From assembly GCA_024282035.1 (NCBI GenBank), contig JAMWZR010000007.1, positions 39,487 to 103,486 of the forward strand: a stretch of DNA of 64,000 nt, in the 5' to 3' direction. The notes beneath the pieces are model-generated. The model worked only from the letters and a program-made list of their open reading frames with translations. It was not told the DNA's origin and searched no databases. Shown here one piece after another: positions 5,259-58,333 of the stretch; the first letter of the stretch is position 1; every line of letters begins with the position of its first letter. The position numbers and the translations under genes were made by a program. Origin of the DNA: Nitrosomonas sp. Its GTDB lineage: Bacteria > Pseudomonadota > Gammaproteobacteria > Burkholderiales > Nitrosomonadaceae.

Positions 5259-7397
5259 TTATTCTGTAGTTGGTGACGTATTTTCTGCATCTGCAGCGGG
5301 ATTTCCGCTTTCTTCCGAGATGACTGCCTTCATGCTCAACCGTAACCTTCCCTTGTCATCTGCTTCTAAAACCTTGACTCTGACTTGTTGTCCTTCACTT
5401 AAATGATCAGAAACATTATTGACTCGTTCGCTGGCAATCTGTGAGATGTGTAGCAAACCGTCCTTGCCGGGAAGGACACTGACAATGGCGCCAAAATCCA
5501 ACAATTTCAGTACTACGCCATCGTAAATCCTGCCAACTTCAACTTCGGCGGTGATGTCTTCAATACGTTTTTTCGCGAGTTCGCCACCCTCGGCGTTAAT
5601 ACAGGCGATAGTTACCTGACCATCATCGGTAATATCGATGGTGGTGCCTGTCTCCTCAGTTAATGTGCGAATCACGACACCACCTTTACCGATCACATCA
5701 CGAATTTTTTCTGGGTTGATCTTTAGTTTGATAATTCGTGGTGCATGTACCGAGATATCTTCACGTGTGCTGGGCAGAGCCTGTTTCATGATCTGCAGTA
5801 TATGCATTCGTCCTTCATGAGCCTGGATTAGTGCGGCGTGCATGATTTCTTTGGTAATTCCCTGGATTTTGATATCCATTTGCAATGCAGTGATGCCTTT
5901 TTCGGTACCGGCTACCTTGAAGTCCATGTCGCCCAGATGATCTTCATCACCCAGAATATCGGTCAGCACTGCAAAGCGATTCCCATCCTTGATCAGGCCC
6001 ATTGCAATACCTGCAACATGTGATTTGAGCGGTACACCGGCATCCATTAGTGCCAGACAACCACCACAGACCGATGCCATTGAACTGGAGCCATTGGATT
6101 CAGTGATTTCGGATACAACTCGCAGGGAATAGCCAAATTCTTCAGCGGATGGAAGAACAGCCACTAGCGCGCGTTTCGCCAGTCTGCCGTGGCCAATTTC
6201 GCGGCGCTTTGGGGTACCGACACGACCAATTTCTCCAGTTGCATAGGGAGGCATGTTGTAGTGCAACATGAATCGGTCACTATAATCACCCTGCAAAGAA
6301 TCAATTCTTTGTTCATCACGAGCCGTTCCCAAGGTGGCAACAGCCAAGGCTTGGGTTTCACCTCGGGTGAACAATGCAGAGCCATGTGTTCTGGGTAAAA
6401 CGCCATTACGTATCGTAATCGGTCTGACTGTCCGCGTGCCACGACCATCTATACGCGGTTCTCCATCCAGTATCTGGTTTCTAACAATTTTTGCTTCGAG
6501 TGCGAAGTAAGCTTCGGTAAAGGATTGCAAATCCGGGCCACCTTCTGTATCGACACCGATTTCAGTTGCTACACGTTGTCGTATTGTTTCGATCGTTTCT
6601 GATCTAACCTGTTTTTGCTTGATTTTGTAAGCTTGTCTAAGATCCGCTTCAGCCAGTTGGCTAATTTTTTCTGCCAGCGCAGTATCCTTTTCCGGAGGAG
6701 TCCAGTCCCAGGCCGTTACCCCGGCTTCATCAGCAAATTCATTGATCGCATTGATGACGGTCTGCATCTGCTCGTGACCATAGGTGACAGCTCCCAACAT
6801 GATTTCTTCTGATAGTTCCATAGCATCCGATTCGACCATCAGAACAGCCTGTTGTGTTCCTGCCACGACCAGATTCAGTTGGGTGTCCTTAAGTTCAGAA
6901 ACAGTGGGATTGAGAACGTATTCATTATTGATGTAACCGACCCGAGCTGCGCCCAAAGGACCATCAAATGGTATGCCGGACAAAATCAGTGCTGCAGAAG
7001 TACCAATGATAGATGGTATATCCGGATCTATCTCACTATCGGCAGACATCACGGTAGCGACGATTTGAACTTCGTTATAGAAACCTTCGGGGAAAAGGGG
7101 GCGAATCGGACGATCAATGAGCCTGGAAGTAAGCGTTTCTTTTTCTGAAGGACGGCCTTCACGCTTGAAAAAGCTGCCTGGAATCCTGCCCGCAGCGTAG
7201 AATTTTTCCTGATAATCCACTGTAAGTGGGAAAAAGTCCTGTCCAGGCTTAATGTTCTTGGCGCCCACAACAGTAACGAGTACTACTGTATCGTTCATTG
7301 TGACCATGACGGCGCCATGCGCCTGTCTGGCAATCTCTCCAGTTTCTAAAGTAAGCGTGTGTCGTCCGTAAGTAATGCTCTTCTTGATAGGCTTCAA
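5259..7397 (-). CDS. pnp: Polyribonucleotide nucleotidyltransferase (PNPase)
   Basis: PNPase is the 3'-5' phosphorolytic exoribonuclease of the degradosome. The 712-aa protein shows two RNase PH domains, a KH domain with RDVIGKGG near residue 566, and a C-terminal S1 domain (about 619-690) beginning GRIYDG. The start is a TTG at 7397 preceded by AAGGA, and the protein begins [11 protein letters not shown] as in homologues. It lies downstream of rpsO in the conserved rpsO-pnp order. The hairpin between the two genes probably serves in processing and autoregulation, as known for this operon. Confidence 0.96.
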
Positions 7398-52232: not shown

Positions 52233-53939
52233 TTGAACAACAAACCTGCAAATGATCCTGCAACCGAATCTGCACCTTCCAATTTCATCCGCAATATCAT
52301 TGACGAAGACAATCGCATCGGTAAATGGAACAGTCGTGTGGAGACGCGTTTCCCACCCGAGCCCAATGGCTACTTGCACATCGGTCATGCCAAGAGTATC
52401 TGCCTGAATTTCGGTATTGCCCGGGATTACGATGGTGTATGTCATTTGCGTTTCGACGACACCAATCCTGAAAAGGAAGCACAGGAATATGTGGATTCGA
52501 TTTGTGATAGCGTGTCCTGGCTGGGTTTCGATTGGGGCGTGCATTGCTATTACTCGTCCGATTATTTTGTACAGTTGTATGAGTTTGCCGAATTTCTGAT
52601 TACGCAGGGCAAAGCCTATGTTGAAAGCCTGTCTGCTGATGAGATTCGCGAATATCGCGGTACCTTGACCAGTCCTGGCAGGGATAGTCCTTATCGGGAT
52701 CGCCCTGTAGCCGAGAATCTCGATCTGTTTCGCCGCATGAAAGCTGGTGAATTTCCCGATGGGCACTATGTGCTGCGTGCCAAGATCGACATGGCGTCAC
52801 CCAACATCAATATGCGTGATCCGGTTATTTACCGCATCCGCCATGTGCATCATCAGCGTACCGGTAACCAATGGTGCATCTATCCCATGTACGATTACAC
52901 GCATTGCATATCCGATGCTCTGGAACGTATTACCCACTCGCTCTGTACACTGGAATTCGAGGATCATCGCCCGTTGTACGACTGGGTACTCGATCAACTG
53001 GCGGACAAGGTGCCATGTCACCCGCAACAAATCGAGTTTGCACGGCTCAACCTGACCTATACCGTCATGAGCAAGCGCAAACTGATCGAGCTGGTAGAAA
53101 AAAAACTGGTCGATGGCTGGGATGATCCTCGTTTGAGCACACTGGCTGGAGTGCGACGCCGTGGCTTCACACCACGTTCGATTCGGATGTTTACCGATCG
53201 TATTGGTATCAGCAAAGCAGACTCATGGATCGACATGAGTGTACTGGAAGATTGCCTGCGTGAGGATCTGAATGAGCATGCGGTCAGACGCGTTGCCATC
53301 TTGCGGCCACTGAAACTGATCATCGACAACTATCCCGAAGGGCAACAAGAGGACTGCCTGGCACCGAATCATCCACAAAAACCCGAGTTGGGCAAGCGCT
53401 CCATTCCATTTTCCAGAGAGTTGTATATTGAACGTGACGATTTCATGGAAGTACCCAGCAAGGGTTATTTTCGTTTGTCGCCGGGCGCGGAAGTGCGGTT
53501 ACGCTATGCCTATATCGTCAAATGTGTGCACATTGAAAAAAATGCACAGGGTAAAATCGAAGCCATACATTGTACTTATGATCCCGACACCAAAAGCGGC
53601 ACGGCCGGGGCAGAAAGCCGCAAGGTCAAGGGAAACATCCACTGGTTGTCAGTCGCGCATGCCCAGACAGCCGAAGTGCGCCTGTATGACCGACTGTTCA
53701 CCGATCCGCATCCGGACAGTGGTGACAAGGATTACAAATCGGCATTAAACCCCGATTCCAAACAGATCATCAGCGCCTATATCGAAACCGCTTTGTGCGA
53801 AGCGGAACCGGAAGCCAGTTTTCAGTTCGAGCGAAACGGTTACTTTGTCGCCGATCGCATCGATATGAAAGCAGAGAAACCGGTATTCAATCGCGCGGTA
53901 ACATTGCGGGATTCATGGGGGAAACATGCCAGTTCATAA
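52233..53939 (+). CDS. glnS: Glutaminyl-tRNA synthetase
   Basis: A 568-aa class I synthetase with [15 protein letters not shown] (HIGH motif at residues 49-52), the FDDTNPEKE segment and a VMSKRKL motif near residue 278. The DTNP and [11 protein letters not shown] elements are typical of GlnRS rather than GluRS. The start is a TTG at 52233 after a GAGAGG site. The presence of GlnRS implies direct charging of tRNA-Gln. Confidence 0.95.
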
Positions 53940-54050: not shown

Positions 54051-54734
54051 TTAAGAGACTAATTGCTCAAAAAAACCACCAATGTTTTTGTTGCGATCAA
54101 TAAAGTGGATTTCATAGATCCAGTAGCGTTCGTGTCCTAATCGGTCAAGTTCCGACATGCTTAAGTGATTGTCCGGATGAATATAGTTTGTTTTTTCTTC
54201 ACCCAGTAATTTTTCATGAGGGAAATTACCAACAAGATGCCCGCAATGTTCGTTGCCATATTCCCATCCGTATTTTTGTGCCAGTGAGCAGGTGAAAGCA
54301 TAAAATTCGGCGCCGGTTATGGTATTGCGATATTTGTCGAAGTAAGCCTTTCCTTCATCCCAGGCCGACGCAATATCCTTGGCTAATTTGTGCATTTGAG
54401 GATCGCTACCTGTAACAAATGTTCTTCCAATATCAGCTTCCCAGTCTTCAAATATCGGACCGAAATCAAAGAATACAATGTCGTTTTCACCCAGGGTCAG
54501 CTCAGGTGGATTTTCACGGTATGGCAATAGGGTATTCTTGCCGCATCGAACAATCTTTTTATGCCAGTATCTTTGAATACCAAATAACTCAAAAGCAAGA
54601 TCATAAACTAATCGATTTAGTTCTTTTTCCGATAAGCCTGGCTGGATAAGTTGGCGCTGCTCCAAAGTATGGAATAATGCAATGGCTTTTTGGTTTGCGT
54701 TTTGAATCTTGGCAAGATTGTTGTTATTGGGCAT
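54051..54734 (-). CDS. M24-family metallopeptidase-like protein
   Basis: A 227-aa pita-bread fold protein. It has the metal ligands of the aminopeptidase P/methionine aminopeptidase family in order: D90 and D101 (FFDFGPIFEDWEADIGRTF), H166 (CGHLVG), E208 (IYEIHF), and probably E223 near the C-terminus. It lacks the N-terminal domain of prolidases. The start at 54734 has no good ribosome site. It lies one base beyond the stop of a small ORF (54736-54813) that does, so translation is probably coupled. It could be an ordinary peptidase or creatinase-like enzyme. Its position after a tiny ORF and an unknown large protein makes peptide maturation a possible role. Confidence 0.75.
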   Translation of the reverse strand: MPNNNNLAKIQNANQKAIALFHTLEQRQLIQPGLSEKELNRLVYDLAFELFGIQRYWHKKIVRCGKNTLLPYRENPPELTLGENDIVFFDFGPIFEDWEADIGRTFVTGSDPQMHKLAKDIASAWDEGKAYFDKYRNTITGAEFYAFTCSLAQKYGWEYGNEHCGHLVGNFPHEKLLGEEKTNYIHPDNHLSMSELDRLGHERYWIYEIHFIDRNKNIGGFFEQLVS

Positions 54735-54735
54735 T

Positions 54736-54813
54736 TCAGAATACTTGCAATTTAAAGATTTGTTGATTTATATGTTCAATATCAACAATATTAGCTGATT
54801 GCTTGGCTATCAT
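54736..54813 (-). CDS. Small ORF (25 codons) upstream of the M24 peptidase
   Basis: A 25-residue frame starting MIAKQSANIVD and ending in QVF has a CAGGAAA ribosome-like site 5 bases before its ATG. Its TGA is one base from the peptidase ATG, which lacks its own site. It may be a translated leader that couples translation, or a second small peptide. There is no similarity evidence. Confidence 0.35.
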   Translation of the reverse strand: MIAKQSANIVDIEHINQQIFKLQVF

Positions 54814-54854
54814 GATTTTCCTGTTGACTTGAAAGTTGACTATGGTCTTTTATG

Positions 54855-54888
54855 GGGATTAAGGAGGGCAGTTACCCTCCTTAATCCC
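54855..54888 (-). other. Perfect 14-bp hairpin after the 19-codon ORF
   Basis: GGGATTAAGGAGGG and CCCTCCTTAATCCC pair perfectly over 14 bp with a 6-base loop, 13 bases after the micro-ORF stop (minus strand). The next bases are CATAAAAG, not a U tract. It could partly terminate or protect the RNA, so that the short upstream message is more abundant than the downstream gene. It could also mask the AGGAGG sequence it contains. Confidence 0.7.
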
Positions 54889-54901
54889 AAGCTAATTAAT
54901 A

Positions 54902-54961
54902 TTACTCATGAACTCCGCCGCACTTTCTAAGGCCGGCACGAACTTTGGTTTTTACTTTCAT
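54902..54961 (-). CDS. Putative 19-residue peptide, candidate RiPP-type precursor
   Basis: A 19-codon frame from ATG at 54961 to TAA at 54902 encodes a strongly basic peptide starting MKVKTKVRAG and ending CGGVHE, with a single cysteine. A near-perfect ribosome site (CAGGAG) lies 5 to 6 bases before the ATG, which is unusual for chance. It sits 95 bases after an unrecognised 626-aa gene and before a strong hairpin and a peptidase gene, all on one strand. That is the order expected of a small modified-peptide cassette. Expression and homologues could not be checked. Confidence 0.45.
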   Translation of the reverse strand: MKVKTKVRAGLRKCGGVHE

Positions 54962-55056
54962 GATGCTCTCCTGTTACTGAATTTCCCGTGCCCATCGCAC
55001 GTCGATCTGTCAGCCCCGTGCTGGCCTTGCGCGCGCATTAATTTGACTTTTACTGC

Positions 55057-56937
55057 TCAGGTGTCTAAGCAATCGATTATTTCAATACTCTCTTGGGTTA
55101 TAGCCACTTCAATCCCTATAATTTTCATCACCTCATTGATTAAGTAGGGTGGATGGCTTTTTTCTTCTTCTACCTGATAATAAAAGTAGAGATCTTTTGC
55201 AGTGAGCTGTCGAAGCGGTTGTTGACGACCGAGAAGTTGATTGATGTGATATTGAATTTCAGTAGCAGCTCGAAGAACGACTTGTTCAGTTAAAAAATAA
55301 CTCATTAAACAGTTGGTCAGGTCATCGAGTATGCTATTGGCAGCAATATTTTTTGAGTCGAATCGCTTTTGTAACAAGCGATACAATTGATTTTTTGCTG
55401 CTGTCTGCGAGTGCGTCCAGACTGGAGTAAGTCTGTCAGTTAGGGCTGTTTTCGAAGTGATCTGACCGAGACCGCTAGTGGCTTGGGCGTACATGTCGGA
55501 ATATGCTCGCTCGTTATTGATTCGCCATTCTTCTGTTCCAACATAGGTATGTGATCTTACAAAATCTACTAGATCAACCATTTGATTCCGGATTGTGATA
55601 AATGCTGGTAACTCTTTCTCTGGCCACCTTTCAGTAATCGATAATATTTGCTCGTAAGTGCGGGCGACTCGATTCCAGAGTGAAGAGGTCACTGCATTGA
55701 CCTGTAACCCATAAAAGCCGTAGTCGAAAGCCGACTCGATTGCATCGAGAGCAGAAATGACGGCTTCATCAAGTACTACCGACTCAGCATCGTCAACAGG
55801 TTCACCATCAATGAGCACATGCAAGAGCTCTTCAATCATCGCTTTCGGACCGGCGCATACGCCATAGTCTGAAATGAAAACCGCGTTTCGTTCTGCATAA
55901 GCGTATATTTGATTGCTTGTTACGACAGTGTCTGGTGGCAGTGTAGGCTCATCGACCGCTATGAAAAGCATGTAATGCATAGTCATCCGTATCCCATCTG
56001 TTACTCTGAACATTGAAGAAAGAACTGGATGGAGATGGCCATTCTCAATCCGGTTCTTTTTTTTCATCATCAAAAATGCGGGTAGTGCCAACACTTGAGT
56101 GGATAGGCGTTCCAGATCACCAACCGTCCAACCTTGTTGTCTTATCTTGGGAAATCTTCTCAAATAAGCTTCGCGGAAATAATGAAGTGCAGCTAATGTT
56201 TGCTTCCAGTGCATTCTGATACTCTTTAGCGCTGTTACATTCATTGGTTTGTCATCTTGGAATCGACTACCTGGATGTAAGCAAGTCCGCCATGTCGTTG
56301 GCACATCGAGTCGTAACTGGGTAGGAAAAGCATTGGCTTCTCCAATCTGACGACCTTCTGCATCGAGTGCGATGTGGACAATCCGGTAAATGGGAATGAT
56401 TGATTCCAGATACCCTACTTCTGTTGAACGGCCAGTCAGATCATGGGTTATTTTTGCGCATTCGTCATACCACATTCTTGGTGTAGTACTTTTAGAAGGC
56501 GGAACAAGGGAAGGACGAGAGCCAATTTGGGATAAAGATGAGTTCGATGTATTGGGACTTGCTTGATCAAGTATGCCTTCATTGATCAAATGATCTAGTA
56601 AGTCTTTTATTTGTGTCCATTGATATCCATTACCCCAGGTTGTTGCTTCTTGAGCGATAAAATATTCATGTTTGGCAAGCTCCTCACCAAAATCAAATAG
56701 TTCGGGATCGTCAAAGCAGACTTCTCGTTGTCCATAGTAAATATGAAATTCCTTCATGCCTGATTCATCGATCGTATACTCAGCAACCACACGCTTAAAA
56801 TTCGGAAAGAAAATTGTATCTTCAGGATCTAAAGCAGATTGCTGGGTATGATTTTCGTGGAAGGGACAATGATTAACACTTGAATTACTGGTTTCAGAAA
56901 CATTTCTGTGATCATGGATTGGCATTGGTTTATTCAT
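55057..56937 (-). CDS. Large protein of unknown function, possible peptide-modifying enzyme
   Basis: A 626-aa protein that I do not recognise. The N-terminus is His/Cys-rich (HDHRN, NHCPFHENH). Next comes a segment of about 65 residues (EFHIYYGQREVCFDDPELF through IKDLLDHLINEGIL). Its strand-strand-helix pattern resembles a winged-helix domain, similar in outline to PqqD-like RiPP recognition elements. The remaining 450 residues are mainly helical with no visible nucleotide-binding, radical-SAM or P-loop motif. No signal peptide is seen, so it should be cytoplasmic. The ATG at 56937 has a GGAAGGA site; a TTG at 56955 is less likely. The 19-codon ORF follows on the same strand. Confidence 0.55.
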   Translation of the reverse strand: MNKPMPIHDHRNVSETSNSSVNHCPFHENHTQQSALDPEDTIFFPNFKRVVAEYTIDESGMKEFHIYYGQREVCFDDPELFDFGEELAKHEYFIAQEATTWGNGYQWTQIKDLLDHLINEGILDQASPNTSNSSLSQIGSRPSLVPPSKSTTPRMWYDECAKITHDLTGRSTEVGYLESIIPIYRIVHIALDAEGRQIGEANAFPTQLRLDVPTTWRTCLHPGSRFQDDKPMNVTALKSIRMHWKQTLAALHYFREAYLRRFPKIRQQGWTVGDLERLSTQVLALPAFLMMKKKNRIENGHLHPVLSSMFRVTDGIRMTMHYMLFIAVDEPTLPPDTVVTSNQIYAYAERNAVFISDYGVCAGPKAMIEELLHVLIDGEPVDDAESVVLDEAVISALDAIESAFDYGFYGLQVNAVTSSLWNRVARTYEQILSITERWPEKELPAFITIRNQMVDLVDFVRSHTYVGTEEWRINNERAYSDMYAQATSGLGQITSKTALTDRLTPVWTHSQTAAKNQLYRLLQKRFDSKNIAANSILDDLTNCLMSYFLTEQVVLRAATEIQYHINQLLGRQQPLRQLTAKDLYFYYQVEEEKSHPPYLINEVMKIIGIEVAITQESIEIIDCLDT

Positions 56938-57265: not shown

Positions 57266-58333
57266 CTAGTCAATATAAAATCTACCTCGTTGTCGTACCA
57301 ACCGCCAATCAGCCCGATCATGCTCCCGGCACACCCCGTAGCGGAACGATGGCGGGAGTTCAGGGAACTGGAAGCGCAAATCGTAAAACCAGACGCAAGT
57401 ACTTTTTTCTGAATGATCCATGTCTTCCAACACCGGCAATTGGGCAAAGCTGCGAAAAGATTTGAGGGCAGGAGCCTGCCAGGCTTCGCTTATCAGTGCG
57501 GTATGATCTGGGTCGTTACCGAACTGATGCTTTGTGCTCCATTTGATCTCGGTGCTCGGATGGTAAGCTGCAGCCATCTTGGGGACAAGCCAGGCATGTG
57601 CAGTGGTAGTTGGTGTTGCGGCAAAGGGCGATAAATTTACATTGGCAAGGTGATAGGTTGCATCATGCAAGACGATCAATTTCCAGTGGAATGGCGATAA
57701 CGGTTGCGGAAGCGCCGAGATCGACGCTTTTGTTACAGTGTGTCGTGAGGCATGATCCTGGGTCAGTTCGATGGCCTGCTGGCGCAGTGTCGAGAGTAAA
57801 GTGACATACCCGCACAGGATGATCAGCGCCACGATGGCGGGGATTCTGGATTGGGGAAGGCAATATGAAGCCACCAGACCAGCCATGATGATCAGACTGA
57901 ACCAGGGATCGATGACAAATACCAATGGCAGCGCAAAACGTTCAGTAGAGAATGGTGCAAACAGCATCAGACCATACGATGTGATGACATCGCCGGCAAT
58001 ATGAGCAGCCAGACCGAGCATAACCGGCGTCATGAATAGCGGCCAAGCATGCCGACCGCGACTCAGTCTTGCGCCTATCCTGGACAACATCCATGCCCAC
58101 AGCGGCAGCAGGAGCAGCGAATGGGTTGGACCCTGATGCCAGTTCAGGTAAGTCAGGGTATCGATCAGTCGCAACATGACATCCACGTCCGGAAATGCTG
58201 CAGCAGCAAAACCGGCGACGATTTGCAGGCGTAGTGGCAATCGGGTTTGCCCTGCAACATCGCTCAGGGTCGTTGGCGATTGACTTGCCCGCACCAGCAG
58301 GGCGCCGCTCAACGCATGCGTGAGCGGATCCAT
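57266..58333 (-). CDS. YdjM/DUF457-family membrane-bound metal-dependent hydrolase
   Basis: A 355-aa protein beginning MDPLTHALSGALL, with the family's conserved histidines and aspartates in FPDVDVML, WHQGPTHSLLLLP and LAAHIAGDVITSYG. These are interspersed with about five hydrophobic segments. Family members are inner-membrane proteins with a putative metal site; the best known (YdjM/LexA-regulated) has no defined substrate. The last 130 residues are soluble. It is 3 bases downstream of the TetR-type regulator and probably cotranscribed with it. Confidence 0.8.
   Translation of the reverse strand: MDPLTHALSGALLVRASQSPTTLSDVAGQTRLPLRLQIVAGFAAAAFPDVDVMLRLIDTLTYLNWHQGPTHSLLLLPLWAWMLSRIGARLSRGRHAWPLFMTPVMLGLAAHIAGDVITSYGLMLFAPFSTERFALPLVFVIDPWFSLIIMAGLVASYCLPQSRIPAIVALIILCGYVTLLSTLRQQAIELTQDHASRHTVTKASISALPQPLSPFHWKLIVLHDATYHLANVNLSPFAATPTTTAHAWLVPKMAAAYHPSTEIKWSTKHQFGNDPDHTALISEAWQAPALKSFRSFAQLPVLEDMDHSEKSTCVWFYDLRFQFPELPPSFRYGVCREHDRADWRLVRQRGRFYID

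Follow-up and report, generated by a model that had tools for sequence, protein, structure and literature searches.

Does a 626-residue protein of no assigned family mature the product of the 19-codon gene beside it? The question arises in a 64,000-nucleotide stretch of Nitrosomonas sp. contig JAMWZR010000007.1 (the window), where this protein, here called X, shares a strand with a micro-open reading frame (micro-ORF), a hairpin and an M24-type peptidase gene. We consider it probable (about 0.77) that this cassette is part of a new pathway for products resembling ribosomally synthesized and post-translationally modified peptides (RiPPs), dependent on a RiPP recognition element (RRE). Five elements form the basis of the pathway, each shown by sequence or prediction: the pairing of the two genes, the RRE-type fold predicted for X, the conserved start of the peptide, the link between X and Cys-containing tails, and the exporters. 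The proposal of a RiPP-like peptide cassette, first made in a reading of the window from its letters alone (the sequence-only reading), is thereby supported; we further infer that the peptide is chemically modified.

Protein X and a micro-ORF share one strand

All four main parts lie on the minus strand, where the sequence-only reading had placed them:

55057..56937, minus strand: protein X, 626 aa, ATG at 56937, stop ending at 55057
Ahead of the X ATG, minus strand: Shine-Dalgarno-like sequence, GGAAGGAA
56557..56838, minus strand: winged-helix domain of X, RRE-type (residues 34-127), from the predicted fold and Foldseek
Within 55057..56937, minus strand: core of X (residues ~145-440), mostly helical, then a C-terminal helical region, from a 22-member alignment and AlphaFold2
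54902..54961, minus strand: precursor-like micro-ORF, MKVKTKVRAGLRKCGGVHE, 19 codons, with CAGGAG six bases upstream of its ATG
54855..54888, minus strand: stable hairpin after the micro-ORF, 15 pairs, with a 16-pair counterpart in Nitrosomonas sp. LK110
54051..54734, minus strand: M24 metallopeptidase, 227 aa (Pfam PF00557, E 7e-23)

The near-consensus ribosome site claimed for the micro-ORF is present, and none is seen upstream of the M24 gene, likewise as described. The hairpin, reported as a perfect 14-bp stem, exists in slightly different form, its 15 pairs comprising 14 Watson-Crick pairs and one G-U.

A Cys-type peptide accompanies X across species

The micro-ORF splits into a putative leader, MKVKTKVRAG, and a putative core, LRKCGGVHE, the border probably falling directly after the Ala-Gly. 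Its DNA pattern had no match in 50 mononucleotide shuffles of the window. Scanning 84,980 genomes with a peptide pattern yielded 109 stretches (designated L below; genomes are designated G) holding 146 matching ORFs that end in a stop, those lacking a stop within their stretch, including a second copy in L040, being excluded; 139 are at most 130 aa, most of them far shorter, and 7 exceed 130 aa. Part of these collection-wide matches are surely due to chance. The short peptides, often in tandem copies, combine a near-fixed start, MK[VI]K[ST][KN][VI][KR]AG (partly demanded by the pattern), with variable tails that include ...SRCVGI, RCGG units, ...WG(A/T), NHNQ and GADD...PNH. They thus have the form of a RiPP precursor, short and gene-encoded, with a near-fixed MKxK[ST]..xAG start and a variable tail. 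Named hosts among stretches L012-L091 include Acidobacteria, Myxococcota, Planctomycetes, Chloroflexi and many Pseudomonadota; tblastn of a 20-aa peptide against plasmids found no match.

When X was compared with the ORFs of the 109 stretches by phmmer, 23 loci matched. The peptide lies downstream of X in 22 of them, at -3 to 443 nt, and in the remaining one (L089) X runs off the end of the stretch. Thirty genomes with X were at hand, 27 of them with sequence downstream of the gene; a fragment in G764, together with G1087 and G1088, was left out as the contigs end there. A family peptide lies within 445 nt downstream in 26 of these 27, a selected number because most X loci were reached through the peptide, and one that includes G536 by separate reading, since the search expression missed its MNIK start. 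Where X was reached through X itself (G025, G639 and G736), the peptide is present in 3 of 3, a count that omits the window, picked for having both, and G583, whose contig is shared with pattern locus L077. The micro-ORF is accordingly conserved beside homologues of the large gene, as the sequence-only reading had expected of a genuine cassette.

The tail, too, tracks X. Cys-motif ([RK]CxG-like) tails end 24 of the 27 peptides at X loci versus 13 of 119 elsewhere (Fisher 4e-15), a comparison in which the expression was written post hoc, after the peptides had been inspected, is broad enough to take in peptides of another make (L016, L095), and is judged by a test that ignores kinship. Seven genomes chosen by eye, each with an SRC[VA]G-like peptide on a stretch lacking X, all proved to encode X; five were already known X genomes, and G1087 and G1088 were new. 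Full-length X was found in none of the 25 genomes tested that carry other peptide subtypes, and one of these, G1099, has a match to the X winged helix only. The precursor is genetically linked to X across species, and X would be the protein that matures it.

L043 encodes two peptides next to X, together with an M24 peptidase and an efflux protein of the outer membrane: one (6564-6683) carries three tandem STRCGG units, and the other (6911-7003) carries PRCGG and TRCSG. This pair of peptides suggests RCGG as the unit that is modified.

Other branches of the peptide family differ in architecture. NHNQ/NHNE-type members (L012, L044, L058, L071, L105, L107 and L117; named carriers, Acidobacteria and Minicystis) repeat a KxKxxxKAG unit within a single ORF. 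A Terriglobia locus (L016 11-5060) holds five related peptides, including some with CGSGGCMHAA/CGSGGCMHVA tails, adjoining an extracytoplasmic function sigma factor.

X joins a predicted RRE-type winged helix to a core of no assigned family

Twenty-two members of the X family, some truncated, are alignable across about 620 residues, from Nitrosomonas, Methylomonas, Nitrospira, Ramlibacter and Phenylobacterium among others. X has no worthwhile match in Pfam, NCBIfam, PADLOC or PDB sequences, and the sporadic Pfam matches of individual members are no better than E 0.018. These empty searches agree with the sequence-only reading, which had seen neither an enzyme motif nor a RiPP enzyme family in X; nor did Pfam, NCBIfam, PADLOC or PDB assign it to an unrelated housekeeping family. 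The AlphaFold2 model of X has a mean predicted local distance difference test score (pLDDT) of 83.8 and a predicted template modeling score (pTM) of 0.76. Foldseek with the whole model returned 318 matches at E ≤ 10 and 0 at E ≤ 0.001; among the best 50 of the 318, only two can be considered probable, MINA53 (prob 1.00) and McbB (prob 0.92), with alignments of 94-108 columns that we take to cover the N-terminal domain.

Modeled alone, residues 34-127 (94 residues) reach a pLDDT of 93.8 and a pTM of 0.81. RRE-containing structures are matched at E 0.02 (TruD), 0.04 (McbB), 0.11 (PbtF), 0.13 (4v1t, presumably LynD-type), 0.14 (TbtB), 0.15 (TbiB1) and 1.1 (MccB, at rank 40 with prob 0.38). The structure check suggested for residues 40-115 thus predicts an RRE-type fold, with the winged helices of ribosomal oxygenases as closest solved matches. 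The PqqD family (PF05402), whose outline the sequence-only reading had seen, is not matched: X has no Pfam match at E ≤ 1, and PF05402 is absent from the matches of the 22 members. The order of strands and helices agrees with the RRE definition in PMC12710340.

Pfam scans of X found no JmjC/cupin catalytic domain. In G1099 (L100/L170), the C-terminal domain of a JmjC protein (PF08007, E 6.7e-16) is a homologue of the X winged helix (E 4.5e-11), and a reverse search with this domain recovers X proteins. The JmjC gene (L170 490-1788) lies ~100 nt upstream of the peptide MKVKSNVKAGNARALSRG at L170 1887-1943. This single case supports, short of proof, a winged-helix domain that reads the MKxK..AG start.

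The core of X matches no solved structure in Foldseek and no known family. Arg196, Glu200, Asn233, Gly315 and Cys361 are conserved in 11 of 11 aligned cores, and no His is common to all. The idea that X is a haem-dependent dioxygenase or haem-thiolate protein, prompted by its VCAGP loop, found no support in Pfam or Foldseek. An apparent homologue in L006/L008 was rejected, the match falling within a biotin carboxylase frame.

Homologues of the core also occur without an RRE, eight of them in L003 (Burkholderia arboris), L007, L151-L155 and L158; a strict expression that can miss variants found the peptide at none of these eight loci. On the B. arboris plasmid (L003 768-10591, where the record has no annotated features), an inositol-phosphatase-like protein, a metallo-β-lactamase-fold protein, a cupin_8/JmjC protein, the core homologue and a nonribosomal peptide synthetase with condensation, AMP-binding and carrier domains are encoded consecutively. 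The L007 homologue adjoins an ATP-grasp protein. One genome of the Methylomonas family has two RRE-less homologues 11 kb apart (L163 3074-4330 and 15210-16487), surrounded by a Rieske oxygenase, a vanadium-haloperoxidase-like protein and a methyltransferase, with similar neighbors in L165 and L166. These settings look biosynthetic.

Exporters adjoin many X loci

Genes for a C39 peptidase-containing ATP-binding cassette (ABC) exporter and HlyD occur at 13 of 23 X loci versus 14 of the 86 remaining stretches. Of the 23 X loci, 9 show an outer-membrane efflux protein, 6 a histidine kinase and 4 an MbnH/MauG-like protein. Each of these assignments was made by homology to a single representative scanned with Pfam, in stretches no longer than 8 kb. 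The LK110 exporter is encoded directly after the M24 gene, on the other strand. The window genome encodes its C39-ABC, ABC and HlyD proteins on another contig, C6, at 94, 93 and 91% identity to the LK110 set. Both C39 (PF03412) and ABC domains are recognized in LK110 (L030), at 65.9 bits against a cut-off of 22 and, for ABC_tran, 80 bits against a cut-off of 25; C39 of the C6 exporter scores 73.3 bits.

Two MQVKTN[VL]KAG peptides, MQVKTNVKAGRRGRGGHDDGPNHQ and MQVKTNLKAGKHGADDPAGDDRGNHGAGHK, are encoded upstream of HlyD and C39-ABC on C6 (L125 9945-10019 and 10201-10293, minus strand), and a multicopper oxidase gene lies beyond both (L125 11319-13307). LK110 has two such peptides at the corresponding exporter position, in the same arrangement. 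Since such peptides adjoin the exporter in both Nitrosomonas, the link between exporter and peptide family extends beyond X. The Ala-Gly that closes their start is similar to the double-glycine motif cleaved by C39 peptidases, and this common start may be there for the peptidase of the exporter.

MbnH/MauG-like di-haem proteins (~745 aa where complete) lie near CRG/CRS/CSG-tailed peptides in L033, L052, L083 and L111, and also in L077; the hosts are methanotrophs and Nitrospira.

The cassette in two Nitrosomonas

LK110 (G025; L002/L030) is a second Nitrosomonas with the order X, micro-ORF, hairpin and M24 gene. Its contig begins within X, which is 60% identical across residues 463-624; M24 is 81% identical. 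Across the 19 codons of the micro-ORF, 13 are identical, 4 synonymous and 2 conservatively changed. The corresponding figures are 57 same, 42 synonymous and 66 residue-changing for X (165 codons, stop included) and 90, 94 and 44 for M24 (228 codons). The peptide is therefore more tightly held than X. Between the genes lie the following:

54962..55056, minus strand: stretch between X and the micro-ORF, 69 of 95 bases as in LK110, containing the CAGGAG ribosome site
54987-55001, minus strand: small hairpin CGTGC-GATGG-GCACG, 5' of the micro-ORF and identical in LK110
54736-54813, minus strand: 25-codon ORF with no LK110 counterpart

From the large hairpin to M24, 49 of 102 bases are kept and 18 more stand opposite gaps. 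The 25-codon ORF, counted as part of the cassette in the sequence-only reading and considered here as a second peptide, was dropped because it is not conserved in LK110. The large hairpin folds at -27.7 kcal/mol (z -6.6), a stability equaled by 0 of 200 shuffles, and was not called a terminator because no T-run is present. An Rfam search of 54650-55150 gave three matches, all at chance level.

In the stretches analyzed, M24 accompanies X only in the window, in LK110 (L030) and in L043, the latter two being 2 of the 23 X loci. Its Asp90, Asp101, His166, Glu208 and Glu223, which we take to be metal ligands, are conserved in 3 of 3 homologues.

The cassette is flanked by a glutamyl/glutaminyl-tRNA synthetase gene (read here as glnS) at 52233-53939 on the opposite strand and by a YdjM-family gene at 57266-58333. 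Its G+C content is 41.9%, versus 47.8% for the window; since ~15% of equal-sized window stretches are lower, foreign origin is weakly signaled at most.

A proposed pathway

In the pathway we propose, the micro-ORF would encode the precursor, the N-terminal winged helix of X would bind its ten-residue leader, and the core domain would modify the Arg/Lys-Cys-x-Gly unit. The C39 peptidase of the ABC exporter would then cut after Ala-Gly, the exporter would secrete the product, and the M24 peptidase may trim it. The product in the window would come from LRKCGGVHE. Antibacterial, signaling and copper-handling functions all appear possible, signaling because of kinase and regulator neighbors, and copper handling because of the MbnH-like neighbors in methanotrophs and Nitrospira and the multicopper oxidase near the Nitrosomonas exporter.

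A broader reading is more tentative, its chances falling slightly below even. It holds that X is an enzyme family of new fold with an unassigned chemistry on Arg/Lys-Cys-x-Gly and a leader of ~10 residues read by the RRE, and that its pathway forms a branch of a large, many-phylum MKxK[ST]NxKAG superfamily, in which X, the RRE-JmjC protein and others would process peptides for secretion by C39 exporters; the product may handle copper in methane and ammonia oxidizers, whose loci have MbnH-like di-haem proteins or a multicopper oxidase nearby.

Several observations weigh against the proposed pathway, besides the selection behind the 26 of 27 count. One X gene, in G529, has no peptide directly after it; a GADD-type peptide precedes X there, and L087, an RC-type peptide, lies at a separate place on that contig. 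Among the 25 X-less genomes, 4 (L016, L059, L065 and L095) have Cys peptides of another make, so a Cys in the tail is insufficient by itself. The winged-helix domain finds its best Foldseek matches in MINA53/NO66 oxygenases (E 5e-5 to 2.5e-3, three at E ≤ 0.001), and the RREs of RiPP proteins rank after them at weak E values of 0.02-1.1. A profile of the RRE matched just one of the 42 genomes searched that carry peptides of other subtypes; the MKxK..AG start is therefore not generally tied to this RRE. No C39 exporter lies in the stretch at 10 of 23 X loci.

The cassette is also patchily distributed. Of 149 related genomes searched, the window's own included, 2 have X and the same 2 have the micro-ORF pattern (≤2 mismatches); these 2 also carry the M24 gene (E ≤ 1e-20) among 91 searched. 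A three-row profile, run against 369 genomes of the class, picked up no additional X. In three groups selected for containing X, the gene is present in 7 of 201 genomes, in 4 of 60 (with a fragment besides) and in 1 of 298. Relatives at 35-60% identity, missed by the first whole-protein contig scan, were nevertheless found.

Competing explanations

Because its core matches neither a family nor a solved fold, X might bind or escort the peptide instead of modifying it. Secretion would then be of the unmodified peptide, in the manner of a bacteriocin or pheromone, with X as a non-catalytic escort, immunity or docking protein that holds it through the winged helix and passes it to the exporter. 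Besides a core without known enzyme relatives, the histidine kinases next to 6 of the 23 X loci, an arrangement familiar from peptide signaling, and the C39 exporters that adjoin peptides of other subtypes without X would suit such a role. We nonetheless consider it unlikely: X tracks Cys-type tails, not export, RRE-less homologues of its core sit in the biosynthetic-looking settings of L003, L163 and L007, and Arg196, Glu200, Asn233 and Cys361, invariant in the 11 aligned homologues, resemble an active site.

Much less probable is that the micro-ORF is a regulatory leader of the M24 gene, an attenuator or coupling upstream ORF with the hairpin as its switch. The position of the hairpin between micro-ORF and M24, its retention in LK110 and the lack of a ribosome site before M24 fit this arrangement, but 21 of 23 X loci have no M24 in the stretch and 20 of those 21 have the peptide directly after X. 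The tandem copies of the peptide, its mostly synonymous variation between the two Nitrosomonas and the three STRCGG units in one L043 copy also argue against it. Least probable of all is a type I toxin or other membrane-active micro-protein independent of X, which the very short, basic peptide and the nearby hairpin might recall, but its 19 residues contain no hydrophobic stretch and its pairing with X is conserved.

Relation to known systems

RRE-dependent RiPP pathways, such as those of TbiB1 (lasso peptide), TruD and LynD-type heterocyclases, McbB (microcin B17), PbtF (thiopeptide) and MccB (microcin C7), likewise combine a short precursor with a protein bearing an RRE-type winged helix, a predicted one in X. 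X differs in that YcaO, ThiF/E1, radical SAM, lanthipeptide and lasso models do not match it, its core belongs to no known family, and the leader has only ~10 residues. Bacterial JmjC-RRE homologues occur in RiPP-like contexts, according to Bregman et al. 2025 (PMC12710340), and these RRE-JmjC fusions resemble the L100/L170 case, in which the JmjC protein carries a homologous winged helix and its gene neighbors that of a peptide sharing the start. X, in contrast, has no JmjC/cupin match, and the parts of PMC12710340 consulted here mention neither this leader nor X.

NHLM/NHLP export systems (TIGR03794/03796/03797) share with L030 and L125 the consecutive HlyD, C39-ABC and second ABC genes. The exporters here fall far short of the curated cut-offs (185.5 versus 853.3, 96.2 versus 709.4 and 22.9 versus 156.2), and their precursors are tiny, whereas NHLM/NHLP precursors are Nif11- or nitrile-hydratase-like. 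Methanobactin shares a Cys within a tiny precursor, and some X clusters have an MbnH/MauG-like di-haem protein (L033, TIGR04039 at 105.7 bits, cut-off 362.85). X differs from its proteins in having no NCBIfam or Pfam match whatever, and is therefore unmatched by MbnB/MbnC models; the neighbors were not searched for MbnB. A literature search found no account of X or the peptide family, although most subscription journals lay outside its reach and may describe them.

RiPPs are a known kind of product, within which this cassette would represent a new class, with a maturation protein of no assigned family. It offers a testable pair, a peptide substrate of 19-20 residues and a protein family of ~620 residues. 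Should X prove to be an enzyme, none of the family models applied in this work would cover this maturation catalyst, and searches for the MKxK..AG start could lead to related peptides, many of them encoded by ORFs below ordinary gene-finding size.

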